A stretch of 64,000 nucleotides of DNA, taken from NCBI GenBank assembly GCA_000525025.1, contig JCKJ01000001.1:2356001-2420000 (forward strand), given 5' to 3'. Under the pieces are notes generated by a model, which saw only the letters and a program-made list of their open reading frames with translations, was not told the DNA's origin and did no database searches. A program made the translations under genes and the position numbers. The DNA comes from Methylophilaceae bacterium 11 (GTDB taxonomy: Bacteria; Pseudomonadota; Gammaproteobacteria; Burkholderiales; Methylophilaceae). Positions within the stretch are counted from its first letter, which is position 1, and the number at the start of each line of letters is the position of its first letter. Positions 12,380 through 17,609 of this stretch are shown here, piece by piece.

Positions 12380-13072
12380 ATGAATGCCGAAAAAAGAGAA
12401 GCTATTTTTAATCGTTTACGCGCCGCTATTCCTAACCCGACCACTGAACTCGAATACACCACCACGTTTGAACTGCTAATCGCAGTAATTTTATCTGCAC
12501 AAGCCACAGACAAAGGCGTCAATATCGCCACGCGCAAATTATTCGCCGTTGCCAACACACCGCAAGCCATTGCTGCATTAAGCATAGAAGGTCTAGAGCC
12601 TTATATCAAAACCATCGGCTTATACCACGCCAAAGCCAAAAATGTGATCGCGTGCTGCGAACAGCTTGTTGCCTTGCATCAGGGAGCAGTACCAAACACG
12701 CGCGAAGCGCTGGAAGCACTGCCCGGTGTGGGTCGTAAAACTGCCAATGTCATTCTCAATACTGCGTTTGGCCAACCCACCATTGCGGTCGATACACATT
12801 TGTTTCGCTTGGGTAATCGCACCAAATTAGCGACTGGTAAAAACGTACTGCAAGTCGAGCAAAAGTATTTAAAAACCATCCCAAAGGCATTTTTGCAAGA
12901 TGCGCACCATCTGCTTATTTTGCATGGGCGCTATACCTGTACGGCACGCAACCCTAAATGCGGCGAGTGCTGTATTGTCGATTTATGCGAATATCCCGAC
13001 AAAACGATTCCTAAACCACATCTGATGGCGGGTGAAGGTGTGCCGATGCACAACACGCCTCTATCAGAGTAG
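12380..13072 (+). CDS. nth: Endonuclease III (DNA glycosylase/AP lyase)
   Basis: The 230-residue enzyme removes oxidised pyrimidines in base-excision repair. The helix-hairpin-helix LPGVGRKTANVIL contains catalytic Lys120, and VDTHLFRLGNR holds catalytic Asp138, the same positions as in E. coli. The C-terminal [4Fe-4S] ligands C-x6-C-x2-C-x5-C (CTARNPKCGECCIVDLC) are intact. A short extra tail follows. nth directly downstream of rnfE is a common arrangement in proteobacteria. Confidence 0.96.
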   Translation: MNAEKREAIFNRLRAAIPNPTTELEYTTTFELLIAVILSAQATDKGVNIATRKLFAVANTPQAIAALSIEGLEPYIKTIGLYHAKAKNVIACCEQLVALHQGAVPNTREALEALPGVGRKTANVILNTAFGQPTIAVDTHLFRLGNRTKLATGKNVLQVEQKYLKTIPKAFLQDAHHLLILHGRYTCTARNPKCGECCIVDLCEYPDKTIPKPHLMAGEGVPMHNTPLSE

Positions 13073-13079
13073 CACTAGC

Positions 13080-14204
13080 ATGACTGCTGCATCACTTCCG
13101 TTAAAAGTAGCCACTGGCTTAGCGCACGGCCCAAGTGCAGACCCGGAACTTGCAACGCAAGCGGTACAGGCTGCATTAGAAAAAGCAGGCATGACATCGG
13201 CGCAATGTGTGGTGCTATATCTCACCTCTGAGTTTGCACACGCGCCACAAGCGGCAATTCGTGCTGCGTCTAAAGCCGCCAATTGCACACAGGTCATTGG
13301 CTGCTCTGCGCTAGGCATCTTCACCGAGGAAGATTGGATATTGGATGGTGCGGCGGTAGCGGCGCTGGTACTTTCTCAAGATATTTTCTCTAGCCACCCA
13401 TTGCATGTAGAGGGCAGTCAACATTTACTGACACTTGCTGCGCCCAGTGCAATCAATGCCAGCTGGTTAGCAAGCACGCACACTCGGTTTGGCGGTATTT
13501 CCGGCGATGCTTCTGGCAGTGGCGCTTTCTCGGTATGGCAAGATGGCAAAGGCATCTCTCAAGGTTATTGTGCGTTGGCAATCCAGCACTGCGATGTCGC
13601 GATCGCGGCCAGTCATGGTCTTAAATGGTTGTCTAGCCCTAGAAAAGTCTCAACCAGCCTGCGCTTTGAGCTGCAGTCTATTGCCAACGTCACCGCATAC
13701 ACTAGCTTAAATATGGCCTATCAAACGCTTGATGTGGCCACCGAACCCCTGCCACTACATTTACTGAATGTGGCTTATGCACAGTCTTCCAAAGCGTTTG
13801 CGCAAAACCAATACGAGCTGGCCAGTATCATTATTGCAAATGAAGACACCCAAAGCCTGACGCTATCGCACCCAATACCTGAAGGCTACTGGATACGCTG
13901 GGCATTGCGCGATGCGGACAGTGCGCAAAGTGATTTACATAGCACGGCACAGCAACTTACACAAACATTACAAGGCGCACCAGCATTTGCCTGCATGTTT
14001 TCTTGTTTGGCGCGTGGCCCATATTATTATGGCGGCAATGATGAAGACTTACGCCTGCTGAAAGCCAGCTTCCCCAATATGCCGATTATTGGGTTTTACG
14101 GTAATGGGCAGATTGCACCCATGATGCAACAAAATACGCTATTGCAGCATTCCATCGTGCTCGCATTATTTGGCCAACAAAAGGAAGCGCATGAGTCTGT
14201 TTAA
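13080..14204 (+). CDS. FIST-domain sensory protein
   Basis: The 374-residue protein matches the FIST family (FIST_N then FIST_C), soluble domains thought to bind small ligands such as amino acids in signal transduction. N-terminal segments VIGCSALGIFTEEDW and FGGISGDASGSGAFSVW, and C-terminal ACMFSCLARGPYYYGG and PIIGFYGNGQIAP, are typical. No output domain is attached, so it is a stand-alone FIST protein. ATG 13080 begins 7 bp after the nth stop; a longer frame upstream would overlap nth. It overlaps the next gene by 14 bp. Confidence 0.85.
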   Translation: MTAASLPLKVATGLAHGPSADPELATQAVQAALEKAGMTSAQCVVLYLTSEFAHAPQAAIRAASKAANCTQVIGCSALGIFTEEDWILDGAAVAALVLSQDIFSSHPLHVEGSQHLLTLAAPSAINASWLASTHTRFGGISGDASGSGAFSVWQDGKGISQGYCALAIQHCDVAIAASHGLKWLSSPRKVSTSLRFELQSIANVTAYTSLNMAYQTLDVATEPLPLHLLNVAYAQSSKAFAQNQYELASIIIANEDTQSLTLSHPIPEGYWIRWALRDADSAQSDLHSTAQQLTQTLQGAPAFACMFSCLARGPYYYGGNDEDLRLLKASFPNMPIIGFYGNGQIAPMMQQNTLLQHSIVLALFGQQKEAHESV

Positions 14205-14634
14205 CCCTAGCCGCGATGAAGTCCGTGCATTTTTCTTTGATGCATGGGCAAAATTTAACACGCAGCAAACTCTGACAGATTTAGAAAAACTCGGGGTATC
14301 CATCATGCACATGCATCCGGAATACCATGGGATTTTAAATGACCCAGAACGCTATCAACACCAAACCTATTTTCCAGAAATGGGAGAAACCAACCCGTTT
14401 CTGCATATGAGTCTACACCTCTCCATTCTAGAGCAGCTCAGCATTAACCAACCCACTGGCATTGTCGCCATCTACGAGAAATTAAAAGTAAAGCATCAAG
14501 ATGAACATGAGGCACAGCACGATTTGTTAGAGTGCCTAGCCGAAACTATTTGGCTGGCACAACGTAACCAAACACCGCTGGATGCTGCGCATTATTTAGC
14601 GCTCATGCAACAAAAAAGTGGCGCTATTGCGTAA
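14191..14634 (+). CDS. DUF1841 family protein
   Basis: The 147-residue protein begins MSLFNPSRDEVRAFFFDAW and has the family HPEYH and NPFLHMSLHLSILEQL segments. It is rich in histidine and acidic residues, including HQDEHEAQHDLLECL, which could bind metal. DUF1841 proteins are common in betaproteobacteria and uncharacterised. The start overlaps the end of the FIST gene by 14 bp, so translation is likely coupled. It precedes the sigma-factor gene by less than 30 bp. Confidence 0.85.
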   Translation: MSLFNPSRDEVRAFFFDAWAKFNTQQTLTDLEKLGVSIMHMHPEYHGILNDPERYQHQTYFPEMGETNPFLHMSLHLSILEQLSINQPTGIVAIYEKLKVKHQDEHEAQHDLLECLAETIWLAQRNQTPLDAAHYLALMQQKSGAIA

Positions 14635-14662
14635 TCAGAATGAACATGATTGAATGCTTGCC

Positions 14663-15217
14663 ATGAAAACACCTAATGTGCATGACTGGCTCACAGAACA
14701 TAGCGATTACCTGTATCGTTTTGCACTCGCCAGATTGCGTGACCCACACCTTGCAGAAGATGTAGTACAAGAGACATTTATCGCCGCCATCAAAAGCCCC
14801 AGTTTTGCAGAACAGTCTGCACCGCGCACTTGGCTTACTGGCATCCTTAAACATAAAATCATTGATGTCATGCGTAAGAATATGCGTGAAGTGGTTGCAA
14901 CTGATTTGATGCATGAAGAAGATGCCAATATGGATGAGTTTTTTGACGAGACCGGCCACTGGGCTGAAAAACCCTTGGCTTGGGATATTCCCCACGATGC
15001 GCTTGAGCAAAAACAATTTTTAGTGATTTTGCAGCAATGCATGGATAAGTTACCTAGTAAATTAGCCGCACTTTTTCTGATGCGTGATATTCATGAAACC
15101 GACAATGAAGAAATTTGTAAGGAGTTGAGCATCACGTCGACCAATGCTTGGGTAATGTTGTACAGAGCCCGGATGGGCATCAGAAAGTGTTTAGAAATTC
15201 ATTGGTTACAGGCCTAA
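14663..15217 (+). CDS. ECF-type sigma-70 family sigma factor
   Basis: The 184-residue protein has sigma region 2 (LYRFALARLRDPHLAEDVVQETFIAAI...RTWLTGILKHKIIDVMRK) and region 4 (CMDKLPSKLAALFLMRDI...ICKELSITSTNAWVMLYRARMGIRKCL). It lacks regions 1 and 3, as ECF factors do, and resembles the TIGR02943-type group. ATG 14663 is chosen because family members begin only a few residues before the HDWL-like segment; ATG 14654 is possible. It sits directly before a zinc-finger anti-sigma gene and the hvfABC genes. The inferred role is to activate that operon on metal or oxidative stress. Confidence 0.88.
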   Translation: MKTPNVHDWLTEHSDYLYRFALARLRDPHLAEDVVQETFIAAIKSPSFAEQSAPRTWLTGILKHKIIDVMRKNMREVVATDLMHEEDANMDEFFDETGHWAEKPLAWDIPHDALEQKQFLVILQQCMDKLPSKLAALFLMRDIHETDNEEICKELSITSTNAWVMLYRARMGIRKCLEIHWLQA

Positions 15218-15242
15218 ATATTAAGAAAGGAAGCAGACAAAA

Positions 15243-15494
15243 ATGTTGAATTGTAAACAAACCAGTCAGCTTGTTTCTCAATCCTTAGACCGTCGTTTAA
15301 GTTTACGGGAACGAATTGCAGTACGCTTACATCTACTTATTTGTAAGTATTGCAAACGATTCAGCCAACAGTTGTTAGCTATACGCATCGGCTTACAACG
15401 CATGACAAAATCGATGGAAGAAGACACGCACCTGAATATGCCATCTGAAACCAAAGCACGTATCGCCAAGGCTTTAGAAGCTGAATCGAAGTAA
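15243..15494 (+). CDS. Zinc-finger (zf-HC2) anti-sigma factor
   Basis: The 83-residue soluble protein has H30-x3-C34-x2-C37 (HLLICKYC), the ZAS zinc motif of anti-sigma factors, with Cys4 as a possible further ligand. No membrane helix is present, so sensing would be cytoplasmic, as in RsrA/ChrR-like proteins. A good AAAGGAAG ribosome-binding site precedes ATG 15243. It lies 25 bp after the sigma gene. Pairing with that sigma factor is inferred from adjacency. Confidence 0.82.
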   Translation: MLNCKQTSQLVSQSLDRRLSLRERIAVRLHLLICKYCKRFSQQLLAIRIGLQRMTKSMEEDTHLNMPSETKARIAKALEAESK

Positions 15495-15545
15495 GCGTGT
15501 GACAACAACGTATTACTTATTTATTTAACTCATAAGGAAATAATC

Positions 15546-15866
15546 ATGAAATCAAATACATCTTTAGCATTGGCAATGACTGGCGCTATCGCACTGAGTT
15601 TAGGTGCAGCGAGTGTACAAGCAGGTGAAAATCCATTTGCGATTAAATCGCTATCTAGCGGCTACCAAGTGGCAGATCATCATGAAAAAGCCAAAGACGG
15701 CAAATGTGGCGAAGGCAAATGTAGTGCCGAAATGAAAGCCAAAGAAGGTAAATGTGGTGACAAAGCGAAAGACGGCAAATGTAGCGCTGAGAACAAAGCC
15801 AAAGACGGGAAATGCGGCGAAGGTAAATGCAGCGCTGAAATGAAGAAAGAAAAAGAAAGTAAATAA
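15546..15866 (+). CDS. hvfA: HvfA-type RiPP metallophore precursor (six [DE]GKC[GS] motifs)
   Basis: The 106-residue precursor has a Sec signal peptide (residues 1-26, ending SVQA). A spacer is followed by a Lys/Gly/Cys-rich core with Cys at 54, 59, 70, 79, 90 and 95. Each lies in a [DE]GKC[GS] motif, including one exact EGKCG (67-71); the 14-residue unit at 51-64 recurs exactly at 87-100. In the HvfA/bufferin family, Cys of EGKCG is converted by the MNIO enzyme into oxazolone-thioamide groups that bind copper. The modification here is inferred from the motif and the downstream hvfB/hvfC. AAGGAAAT precedes the ATG. Confidence 0.88.
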   Translation: MKSNTSLALAMTGAIALSLGAASVQAGENPFAIKSLSSGYQVADHHEKAKDGKCGEGKCSAEMKAKEGKCGDKAKDGKCSAENKAKDGKCGEGKCSAEMKKEKESK

Positions 15867-15880
15867 CTTCTGCCTGTTCC

Positions 15881-16786
15881 ATGTCTACATTGGCTGACAT
15901 TCAAGGTGCCGGGTTGGGGTTAAAGCGCGAGCTGATTCCCCAATTCCAGCAGTTTTACCAAGACCCTCATATTGCCAATATCCAATTTGTTGAAATCGCA
16001 CCTGAAAACTGGTTAGGCGTAGGTGGTAAAGCGCTGCATGATTTAACTTGGTTTGCAGAACGCTACCCCATGGTGTGTCATGGGCTTTGCTTATCACTCG
16101 GTGGGCCTGACCCACTGAATATTGATTTTTTAAAGCAGGTAAAGTCTTTTCTAAGCCATTATCAAATTCCGCTTTATACCGAGCATCTCAGCTATTGCAG
16201 TGATATTCAACATGGAGAAGCAGGCTACCTCTACGACTTACTGCCCATTCCATTTACAGAAGAAGCTGTGCATTACGTAGCACAACGCATACGCCAAACC
16301 CAAGATATTTTGGGACAACGCATTGCTGTTGAGAATACTTCGTTCTATGCAGCCTGCCCAATTTCCAGTATGGATGAGATCACCTTTTTGAATGCAGTGC
16401 TGACCGAAGCAGATTGCTGGTTGCATTTGGACATCAACAATATTTATGTGAATAGCGTGAATTTTGGCTTTGATGCGCACGCGTTCTTACAGCAGATTCC
16501 AGGTGAACGTATCGTCTACAGTCATATCGCCGGCCACTACCAAGAAACTCCCAACTTATTGATCGATACACATGGTAAAGATGTGATTGATCCGGTATGG
16601 GCATTATTAGATGAGGCTTACCGCTTATTTGGTACGTTCCCAACATTATTGGAACGTGACAGTAACATTCCACCGTTGCCGGATTTGGTGAAAGAGATCG
16701 ACACGATCGCAGCGTATCAAAATCGTTACGGTTTATTACCTATTGCCAAGGCAACACCGCTCCAAGCAACATTGGTTGCCGTGTAA
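15881..16786 (+). CDS. hvfB: MNIO (DUF692) peptide maturase, HvfB-type
   Basis: The 301-residue protein belongs to the multinuclear non-heme iron oxygenases, TIM-barrel enzymes related to HvfB, BufB and MbnB that modify cysteines in precursor peptides. Candidate iron ligands are all visible: E38/E42 (VEIAPEN), H67 (HGLCL), E101 (TEHLSY), E151 (VENTS), D184 (LDINN), H215 and H219 (SHIAGH), D229/H231 (DTHG) and E258 (LLERD). It begins 14 bp after hvfA and its stop overlaps the hvfC start by 1 bp. The expected substrate is the HvfA product. Confidence 0.9.
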   Translation: MSTLADIQGAGLGLKRELIPQFQQFYQDPHIANIQFVEIAPENWLGVGGKALHDLTWFAERYPMVCHGLCLSLGGPDPLNIDFLKQVKSFLSHYQIPLYTEHLSYCSDIQHGEAGYLYDLLPIPFTEEAVHYVAQRIRQTQDILGQRIAVENTSFYAACPISSMDEITFLNAVLTEADCWLHLDINNIYVNSVNFGFDAHAFLQQIPGERIVYSHIAGHYQETPNLLIDTHGKDVIDPVWALLDEAYRLFGTFPTLLERDSNIPPLPDLVKEIDTIAAYQNRYGLLPIAKATPLQATLVAV

Positions 16787-17538
16787 TGGCTGCACTACCG
16801 GCATTTCAGCAATACCAACTGGCGTTCACCGCGCATATTCGCGACCCTAAAGTACATGCCAAACCAGCGGGCGTAGCAAACCAACGCATGGCCGTGTACC
16901 GCCATGCTATTTTCAATAATTTTTTCAATATCGTGTCAGCTTGCTTCCCGGTATGCCAGCAGGTGTTGGGGGTACGCGCATGGAAAAAACTCATACGTCG
17001 CTATGTCGCAGCACATGCAGCCAAAACACCTGTGTTTAGAGAAATCCCCGAATCGTTTGTGGCATGCTTGGCCAGCATGGAAGATGTGCCCGCCAATATC
17101 AAAGCATTGGCACATTACGAATGGGTAGAGTTAGCAGTGAGTCACCTGCCGGCATCTAACTTGCCGCTGAGTGTGCAACACGATCTACTTGATGAAATAC
17201 CGCTGCTTGCACCCCACCAGCTACTGGCTTATGACTACGCTGTGCACAACATTTCACGCCAATTTATTCCGAGAGACATCACGCCTACGTACCTACTGGT
17301 ATTTCGAGATCCACACTTTGCGGTGCAGTTTATTGAACTGAATGCAGTCACGTTTCGATTATTAAGCATACTTAGCAAACAAACATTTACAGGAAGACAA
17401 GCGCTGACCATACTCGCAGAAGAGCTAGGGCAAACCGATGCGCAAGTCATCATTCAATTTGGCACAGGCATTTTGCATGATTTGCTGACACAGCAAGCAT
17501 TGCTAGGTTCCACGACTAGTAACGCCAACGCCACCTAG
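16786..17538 (+). CDS. hvfC: HvfC-type RiPP maturation partner (DUF2063)
   Basis: The 250-residue protein has the N-terminal DUF2063 domain (RMAVYRHAIFNNFFNIVSACFPV...GVRAWKKLIRRYV), formerly called putative DNA-binding. The C-terminal half contains a second, HvfC-like domain. In studied systems it forms a heterodimer with the MNIO enzyme and recruits the precursor. Its start overlaps the hvfB stop by 1 bp (TAATG). No DoxX-like hvfD follows; a terminator comes next. Confidence 0.88.
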   Translation: MAALPAFQQYQLAFTAHIRDPKVHAKPAGVANQRMAVYRHAIFNNFFNIVSACFPVCQQVLGVRAWKKLIRRYVAAHAAKTPVFREIPESFVACLASMEDVPANIKALAHYEWVELAVSHLPASNLPLSVQHDLLDEIPLLAPHQLLAYDYAVHNISRQFIPRDITPTYLLVFRDPHFAVQFIELNAVTFRLLSILSKQTFTGRQALTILAEELGQTDAQVIIQFGTGILHDLLTQQALLGSTTSNANAT

Positions 17539-17563: not shown

Positions 17564-17591
17564 AAAAAAAAGCCAGCATACGCTGGCTTTT
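17564..17591. terminator. Bidirectional terminator after hvfC
   Basis: Stem AGCCAGC/GCTGGCT with loop ATAC, with a run of A before and T after. It lies between hvfC (plus) and the DUF1289 gene (minus, stop 17610) and can serve both. Confidence 0.85.
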
Positions 17592-17609
17592 CATACTGAT
17601 ATGGCTTAC

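Follow-up and report, generated by a model that had tools for sequence, protein, structure and literature searches.

In a bacterial order that includes the methylotrophic Methylophilaceae, a single stretch of DNA is likely to serve an ECF sigma factor twice, as the coding sequence of its promoter-binding domain and as a promoter that the same factor recognizes. Protein and target would then both constrain that stretch, and the arrangement would hard-wire feedback through the anti-sigma factor and output of the metallophore while leaving the sigma gene out of autoinduction. The case comes from a 64,000-nt stretch of the genome of Methylophilaceae bacterium 11 (hereafter the window; contig JCKJ01000001.1, positions 2,356,001 to 2,420,000) and from comparison of its sigma factor locus with those of relatives.

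Gene content and conservation of the locus

The locus consists of five consecutive genes on the forward strand (14663-17538 of the window). The first (14663-15217) encodes an ECF sigma factor of the TIGR02943 family, recognized with Pfam and NCBIfam models (Sigma70_r2, 9.5e-16; Sigma70_r4_2, 2.4e-11; TIGR02943 above its cut-off); the protein, of about 180 aa, has regions 2 and 4 only, as is typical of ECF sigma factors. The second (15243-15494) encodes an 83-aa soluble zinc-binding (ZAS) anti-sigma factor that matches zf-HC2 in Pfam and NF052368 (75 bits; cut-off 50), with residues C4-x25-H30-x3-C34-x2-C37 that fit the ZAS pattern C/H-x23-26-H-x3-C-x2-C, and without a hydrophobic segment (the 19-residue Kyte-Doolittle mean peaks at 0.68). 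The third (15546-15866) encodes a 106-aa HvfA-type RiPP precursor, identified from motifs and NF050137 (44 bits; cut-off 19.5) and scoring below the cut-off of the full-length equivalog model NF050188 (33.6; cut-off 95). It carries six [DE]GKC[GS] cysteines, which place it among EGKCG-cluster precursors, and a putative Sec signal peptide that, read by eye, ends near residue 26. The next gene (15881-16786) encodes HvfB, an MNIO (DUF692) RiPP-modifying enzyme (NF003818, 399 bits; cut-off 360) that aligns along its whole length to 3BWW, candidate MNIO ligand motifs being present as judged from the alignment. The last (16786-17538) encodes HvfC, an RRE-containing partner with DUF2063 and NGO1945_C domains (NF050145, 240 bits; cut-off 142). 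A terminator-like hairpin (17567-17592, no strand assigned), recognized by pattern match only, separates the hvf operon from the DUF1289-secA operon that converges on it.

A sequence-only reading of the same DNA had described a sigma/anti-sigma-controlled hvfABC metallophore locus with a soluble anti-sigma factor, an MNIO enzyme with iron ligands and a terminator at its end. The family models and gene order agree with that description, each of the five genes being found where it had been placed, and the ligand motifs and hairpin are present as the candidates just described.

Nearly all of the approximately 60 family genomes with the sigma gene retain the gene order (nth)-(FIST)-DUF1841-sigma-ZAS-hvfA-hvfB-hvfC, and in an even sample of 120 genomes of the family, 67 had a match to the sigma factor. 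Because this order is conserved across the family, the locus is far beyond chance; judged from these comparisons, it is an old family trait and not an island. It is also of a known kind, with Neisseria sigmaE/MseR and Haemophilus RpoE2/HrsE as characterised relatives. Three genomes (L158, L182 and L189) retain the sigma-ZAS pair with hvf genes absent nearby.

On the upstream side, family models and gene order place the conserved neighbour DUF1841 (14194-14634, forward strand) outside the system, and a gene for a FIST-domain protein (13032-14204) sits between nth and DUF1841 in many relatives. Just 5' of the sigma start (14634-14663), the window and its relatives also have a conserved short element (e.g. 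TATGCTTCAATAGCC.CATG) and no clear ribosome-binding site; this is possibly a weak housekeeping -10 that would give a near-leaderless transcript.

A putative promoter inside the sigma gene

Within the codons for sigma region 4.2, approximately 100 nt 5' of the anti-sigma gene, is a putative ECF promoter, GTAAG-N16-CGACCAA (15117-15144, forward strand), with the -35 region GTAAG at 15117-15121 and the -10 region CGACCAA at 15138-15144; the general form of the element is GTAAG-N16-CGAC(T/C)AA. Its identification draws on conservation, synonymous constraint and the occurrence of the same element elsewhere. It is exact in 63 of 64 family orthologues, which are relatives, so that the counts are not independent, and it is found in none of four full-length sigma-ZAS paralogues. 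When 168 codon columns were ranked by synonymous constraint, codons 159, 153, 160 and 152 took the first four places, all of them inside the element, and synonymous codon shuffling within each gene yielded the element in about 9% of cases (0.086 per gene). Codon 159 is xCG in 63 of the 64 orthologues while the residue it encodes varies between A, T, P and S. The one loss is in L160, where this codon is AAG and the CG of the -10 region is gone; hvfABC is still kept there.

The element extends beyond the family. Of 20 orthologues outside the family but within the order, approximately 45-52% identical, 17 keep GT(A/C)AG-N16-CGAC in a count made from their sequences, and it is also retained in Cupriavidus plantarum and a Burkholderia strain. 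Where lysine has given way to glutamine, the codon is CAG and the -35 region reads GTCAG, a sequence that the Neisseria -35 consensus GTMAG also covers. The gene that follows, approximately 90-100 nt on, is in most cases the anti-sigma gene. GTAAG-N16-CGAC was absent both upstream of the sigma gene and directly upstream of hvfA, in the window and in relatives, and a promoter of this type 5' of either gene was rejected for that reason. The best reading of these sequences is that the intragenic element would be a promoter for the anti-sigma gene and hvfABC, excluding the sigma gene itself. In a search of the open literature, no precedent turned up for an ECF sigma gene with a promoter embedded in it.

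The predicted regulon and its probable sigma factor

The same element was found approximately 60 nt before msrP in 25 of the 30 genomes that have this gene, and a further genome, G027, has a one-base variant of it. A scan of the whole assembly of the window's genome, with one mismatch allowed, returned matches before msrP, immediately before hvfX, before a BufA2 operon and before a DUF1223 gene, as well as the intragenic site at 15117 of the window. These predicted promoters have what marks a set of ECF promoters: a conserved -35/-10 pair, fixed spacing and several target genes in common. Three matches (genome positions 59317, 248285 and 2343308) fall within genes on the opposite strand and were attributed to chance or coding homology, one at 1482873 was set aside with no convincing gene after it, and the other scan sites followed up were mostly antisense within genes. 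In 16 sigma-bearing genomes, exact matches recur before msrP, hvfX, DUF1223, msrA and bufA2-like/Cys-Lys precursor genes; five sigma-lacking genomes gave two matches in all, none before msrP, hvfX, DUF1223, msrA or bufA2-like genes. The 16-genome scan is noisy, with 73 matches versus 34 for the reversed control, and the argument is therefore based on position and recurrence, not on counts. In two genomes of the same genus (L246 and L249), the element precedes an msrA gene, as in the msrAB link of Neisseria and Haemophilus.

The BufA2 operon (G000:C1:2655772-2657891 in the coordinates of the window's genome; L149:3273-5392) is a second MNIO operon, encoding a BufA2 precursor (NF050166), BufB (NF050167) and a DUF2063 partner. 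The BufA2-type precursor has Cys-Lys and the lipobox LAGC, and no DoxX gene adjoins the operon; the DUF1223 gene converges on it and carries its own copy of the element. The first MNIO locus has no adjoining DoxX gene either, as the sequence-only reading had noted, but a search of the genome found an HvfX-family gene (G000:C1:1363232-1363753; NF050144, 127 bits; cut-off 80) beside msrPQ, 1.0 Mb from the locus. It is the third gene of an msrP-msrQ-hvfX operon (G000:C1:1361562-1363753; L070:2563-4754) with two predicted ECF-type promoters, one 5' of msrP and the other 5' of hvfX. The cluster's HvfX/DoxX member is thus present outside the locus, loss of DoxX from the genome was rejected, and "no DoxX" holds for the locus, not for the system. 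In relatives, hvfX is mostly found beside hvfC or beside msrPQ, the msrPQ-hvfX linkage recurring in many; DoxX lies directly 3' of hvfC in several (e.g. L039, L041, L042 and L067). The earlier account had the core system and missed both the promoter in the sigma gene and the wider regulon of methionine sulfoxide reductases, second MNIO operon and DUF1223.

Two other readings of the element were weighed. It is quite improbable that the locus is an ordinary sigma-ZAS-hvfABC operon with its promoter 5' of the sigma gene, and that the intragenic string is constrained by protein, mRNA structure or translation. Relatives do have a conserved -10-like element just 5' of the sigma start (e.g. TATGCTTCAATAG), and the string sits among conserved residues of the sigma recognition helix; however, the constraint falls on third codon positions and outlasts amino-acid change (xCG with A/T/P/S; AAG to CAG), the paralogues lack the string, and it is the element before msrP, hvfX and bufA2 base for base, with the same 16-nt spacing. 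We consider it very improbable that a different ECF sigma factor of the genome reads the GTAAG-N16-CGAC promoters, including the intragenic one, while the sigma factor of the window has other targets. About a dozen ECF-type sigma genes are present in the genome, and ECF16-type SigF/BcrS factors read the similar GTAAC-N16/17-CGAA, but most of the others lie beside FecR- or RseA-like genes, and inspection of ECF genes revealed no neighbour of the NrsF type, for which reason an NrsF-type ECF factor was rejected as the regulator. Also against another sigma factor is the co-occurrence of the msrP element with the sigma gene of the window: in 29 genomes with msrP, G018 being left out, the element precedes msrP in 24 of 25 sigma-positive and none of four sigma-negative genomes (Fisher p = 2e-4, uncorrected for phylogeny). 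G018, which is 80% complete, has the msrP element with no sigma gene found, and scoring it as sigma-negative gives p = 9e-4. In G003, of the same genus, the sigma gene and hvf locus have been lost, and the element before msrP is also absent. Control by the sigma factor of the window, through an element inside its own gene, remains the preferred reading.

Proposed circuit and comparison with known systems

What the DNA shows directly is the set of genes, the conserved element and where that element lies. We have good confidence in the explanation that joins them, in which a copper-binding peptide locus, an intragenic promoter and an envelope regulon read by the sigma factor belong together. The locus would make an exported, copper-binding peptide, with the repeated HvfA cysteines probably converted to 5-thiooxazoles by HvfB with HvfC. 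The oxazolone-thioamide chemistry given in the sequence-only reading is outdated, as the modification has been reassigned and oxazolin and its relatives carry 5-thiooxazoles (PMC13097082; PMC13419390); 5-thiooxazoles and copper binding are known for the oxazolin, fontiphorin and gonophorin products (PMC13097082). It seems unlikely that the hvfABC product serves zinc or general thiol/oxidant defence and not copper handling: co-regulation with methionine sulfoxide reductases in relatives does point to oxidant stress, and what EGKCG products do physiologically is not settled, but the closest characterised products bind copper (PMC13419390).

In the proposed circuit, the cytoplasmic ZAS anti-sigma factor would hold the sigma factor, probably via zinc and Cys4, until oxidative or thiol-reactive stress releases it; the analogous MseR and HrsE make sensing in the cytoplasm plausible. 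The oxidative signal is in doubt because oxidative stimuli left Neisseria sigmaE expression unchanged (PMC2893595); in Haemophilus they raised rpoE2 expression (PMC7907618). Free sigma factor would then bind GTAAG-N16-CGAC(T/C)AA promoters. Since one of these predicted promoters lies inside the sigma gene, in the region 4.2 codons, active sigma factor would raise its inhibitor and hvfABC without raising itself, a single promoter giving both negative feedback and output. The other copies would drive msrPQ, the distant hvfX, the BufA2 MNIO operon and the DUF1223 gene, and this envelope regulon may couple methionine-sulfoxide repair to copper buffering.

Co-regulation of MNIO peptides and methionine-sulfoxide repair is a known theme, given the cases of Neisseria, Haemophilus and Caulobacter. 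In Neisseria, sigmaE, with MseR as its ZAS partner, governs hvf-like genes, doxX and msrAB (PMC2893595; PMC3240639), and the promoter is GTMAGBWTT-N12/13-CGTCTAAH (PMC2893595). The rpoE operon of Neisseria meningitidis (NMB2140-2145), with the gonococcal ngo/gonophorin genes as its counterpart, resembles the locus in its ECF sigma factor, its cytoplasmic ZAS anti-sigma factor needing Cys4, its MNIO, DUF2063 and DoxX genes and its co-regulated methionine sulfoxide reductase. There, however, the sigma gene is fifth, after doxX and the hvf-like genes, behind one upstream promoter, whereas here it is first, with the predicted promoter inside it and hvfX remote beside msrPQ. Haemophilus RpoE2-HrsE controls msrAB, mtsZ and a DoxX/hvf cluster (PMC7907618); H. 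influenzae likewise has a soluble ZAS anti-sigma factor (67 aa), and its hvfABCX product, oxazolin, is a copper-binding 5-thiooxazole peptide (PMC13419390), a chemistry that the present locus probably shares, but sigma and hvf are separate loci, with rpoE2 in the msrAB region.

Caulobacter sigmaF controls YedY (MsrP), bufferin operons and DoxX via GTAACC-N16-CGAA (PMC3511200), a similar ECF control of MNIO RiPP operons, DoxX and MsrP/YedY; it differs in that NrsF is a membrane anti-sigma factor, the bufferins are DUF2282 proteins and the promoters lie upstream of, not inside, the sigma gene. The ECF16 system of Brucella, BcrS-AbcS (bcrXQP), is likewise an ECF/anti-sigma pair governing MsrP/MsrQ homologues, via GTAAC-N17-CGAA; it has an adjacent methionine-rich peptide, and the text consulted on it names no MNIO genes. 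The locus is a member of this theme, and is distinct in its gene order, its remote hvfX and above all its embedded promoter.

If the proposed reading is true, these bacteria have a compact circuit built on an ECF sigma gene whose coding sequence contains a promoter that the sigma factor itself targets; searches limited to DNA upstream of sigma genes would overlook such a layout. It would also define from sequence a regulon that, in methylotrophs, harmless bacteria of the laboratory, unites the HvfA and BufA2 MNIO copper-binding peptides, HvfX and periplasmic methionine-sulfoxide repair, and what MNIO peptides protect against would become directly testable.
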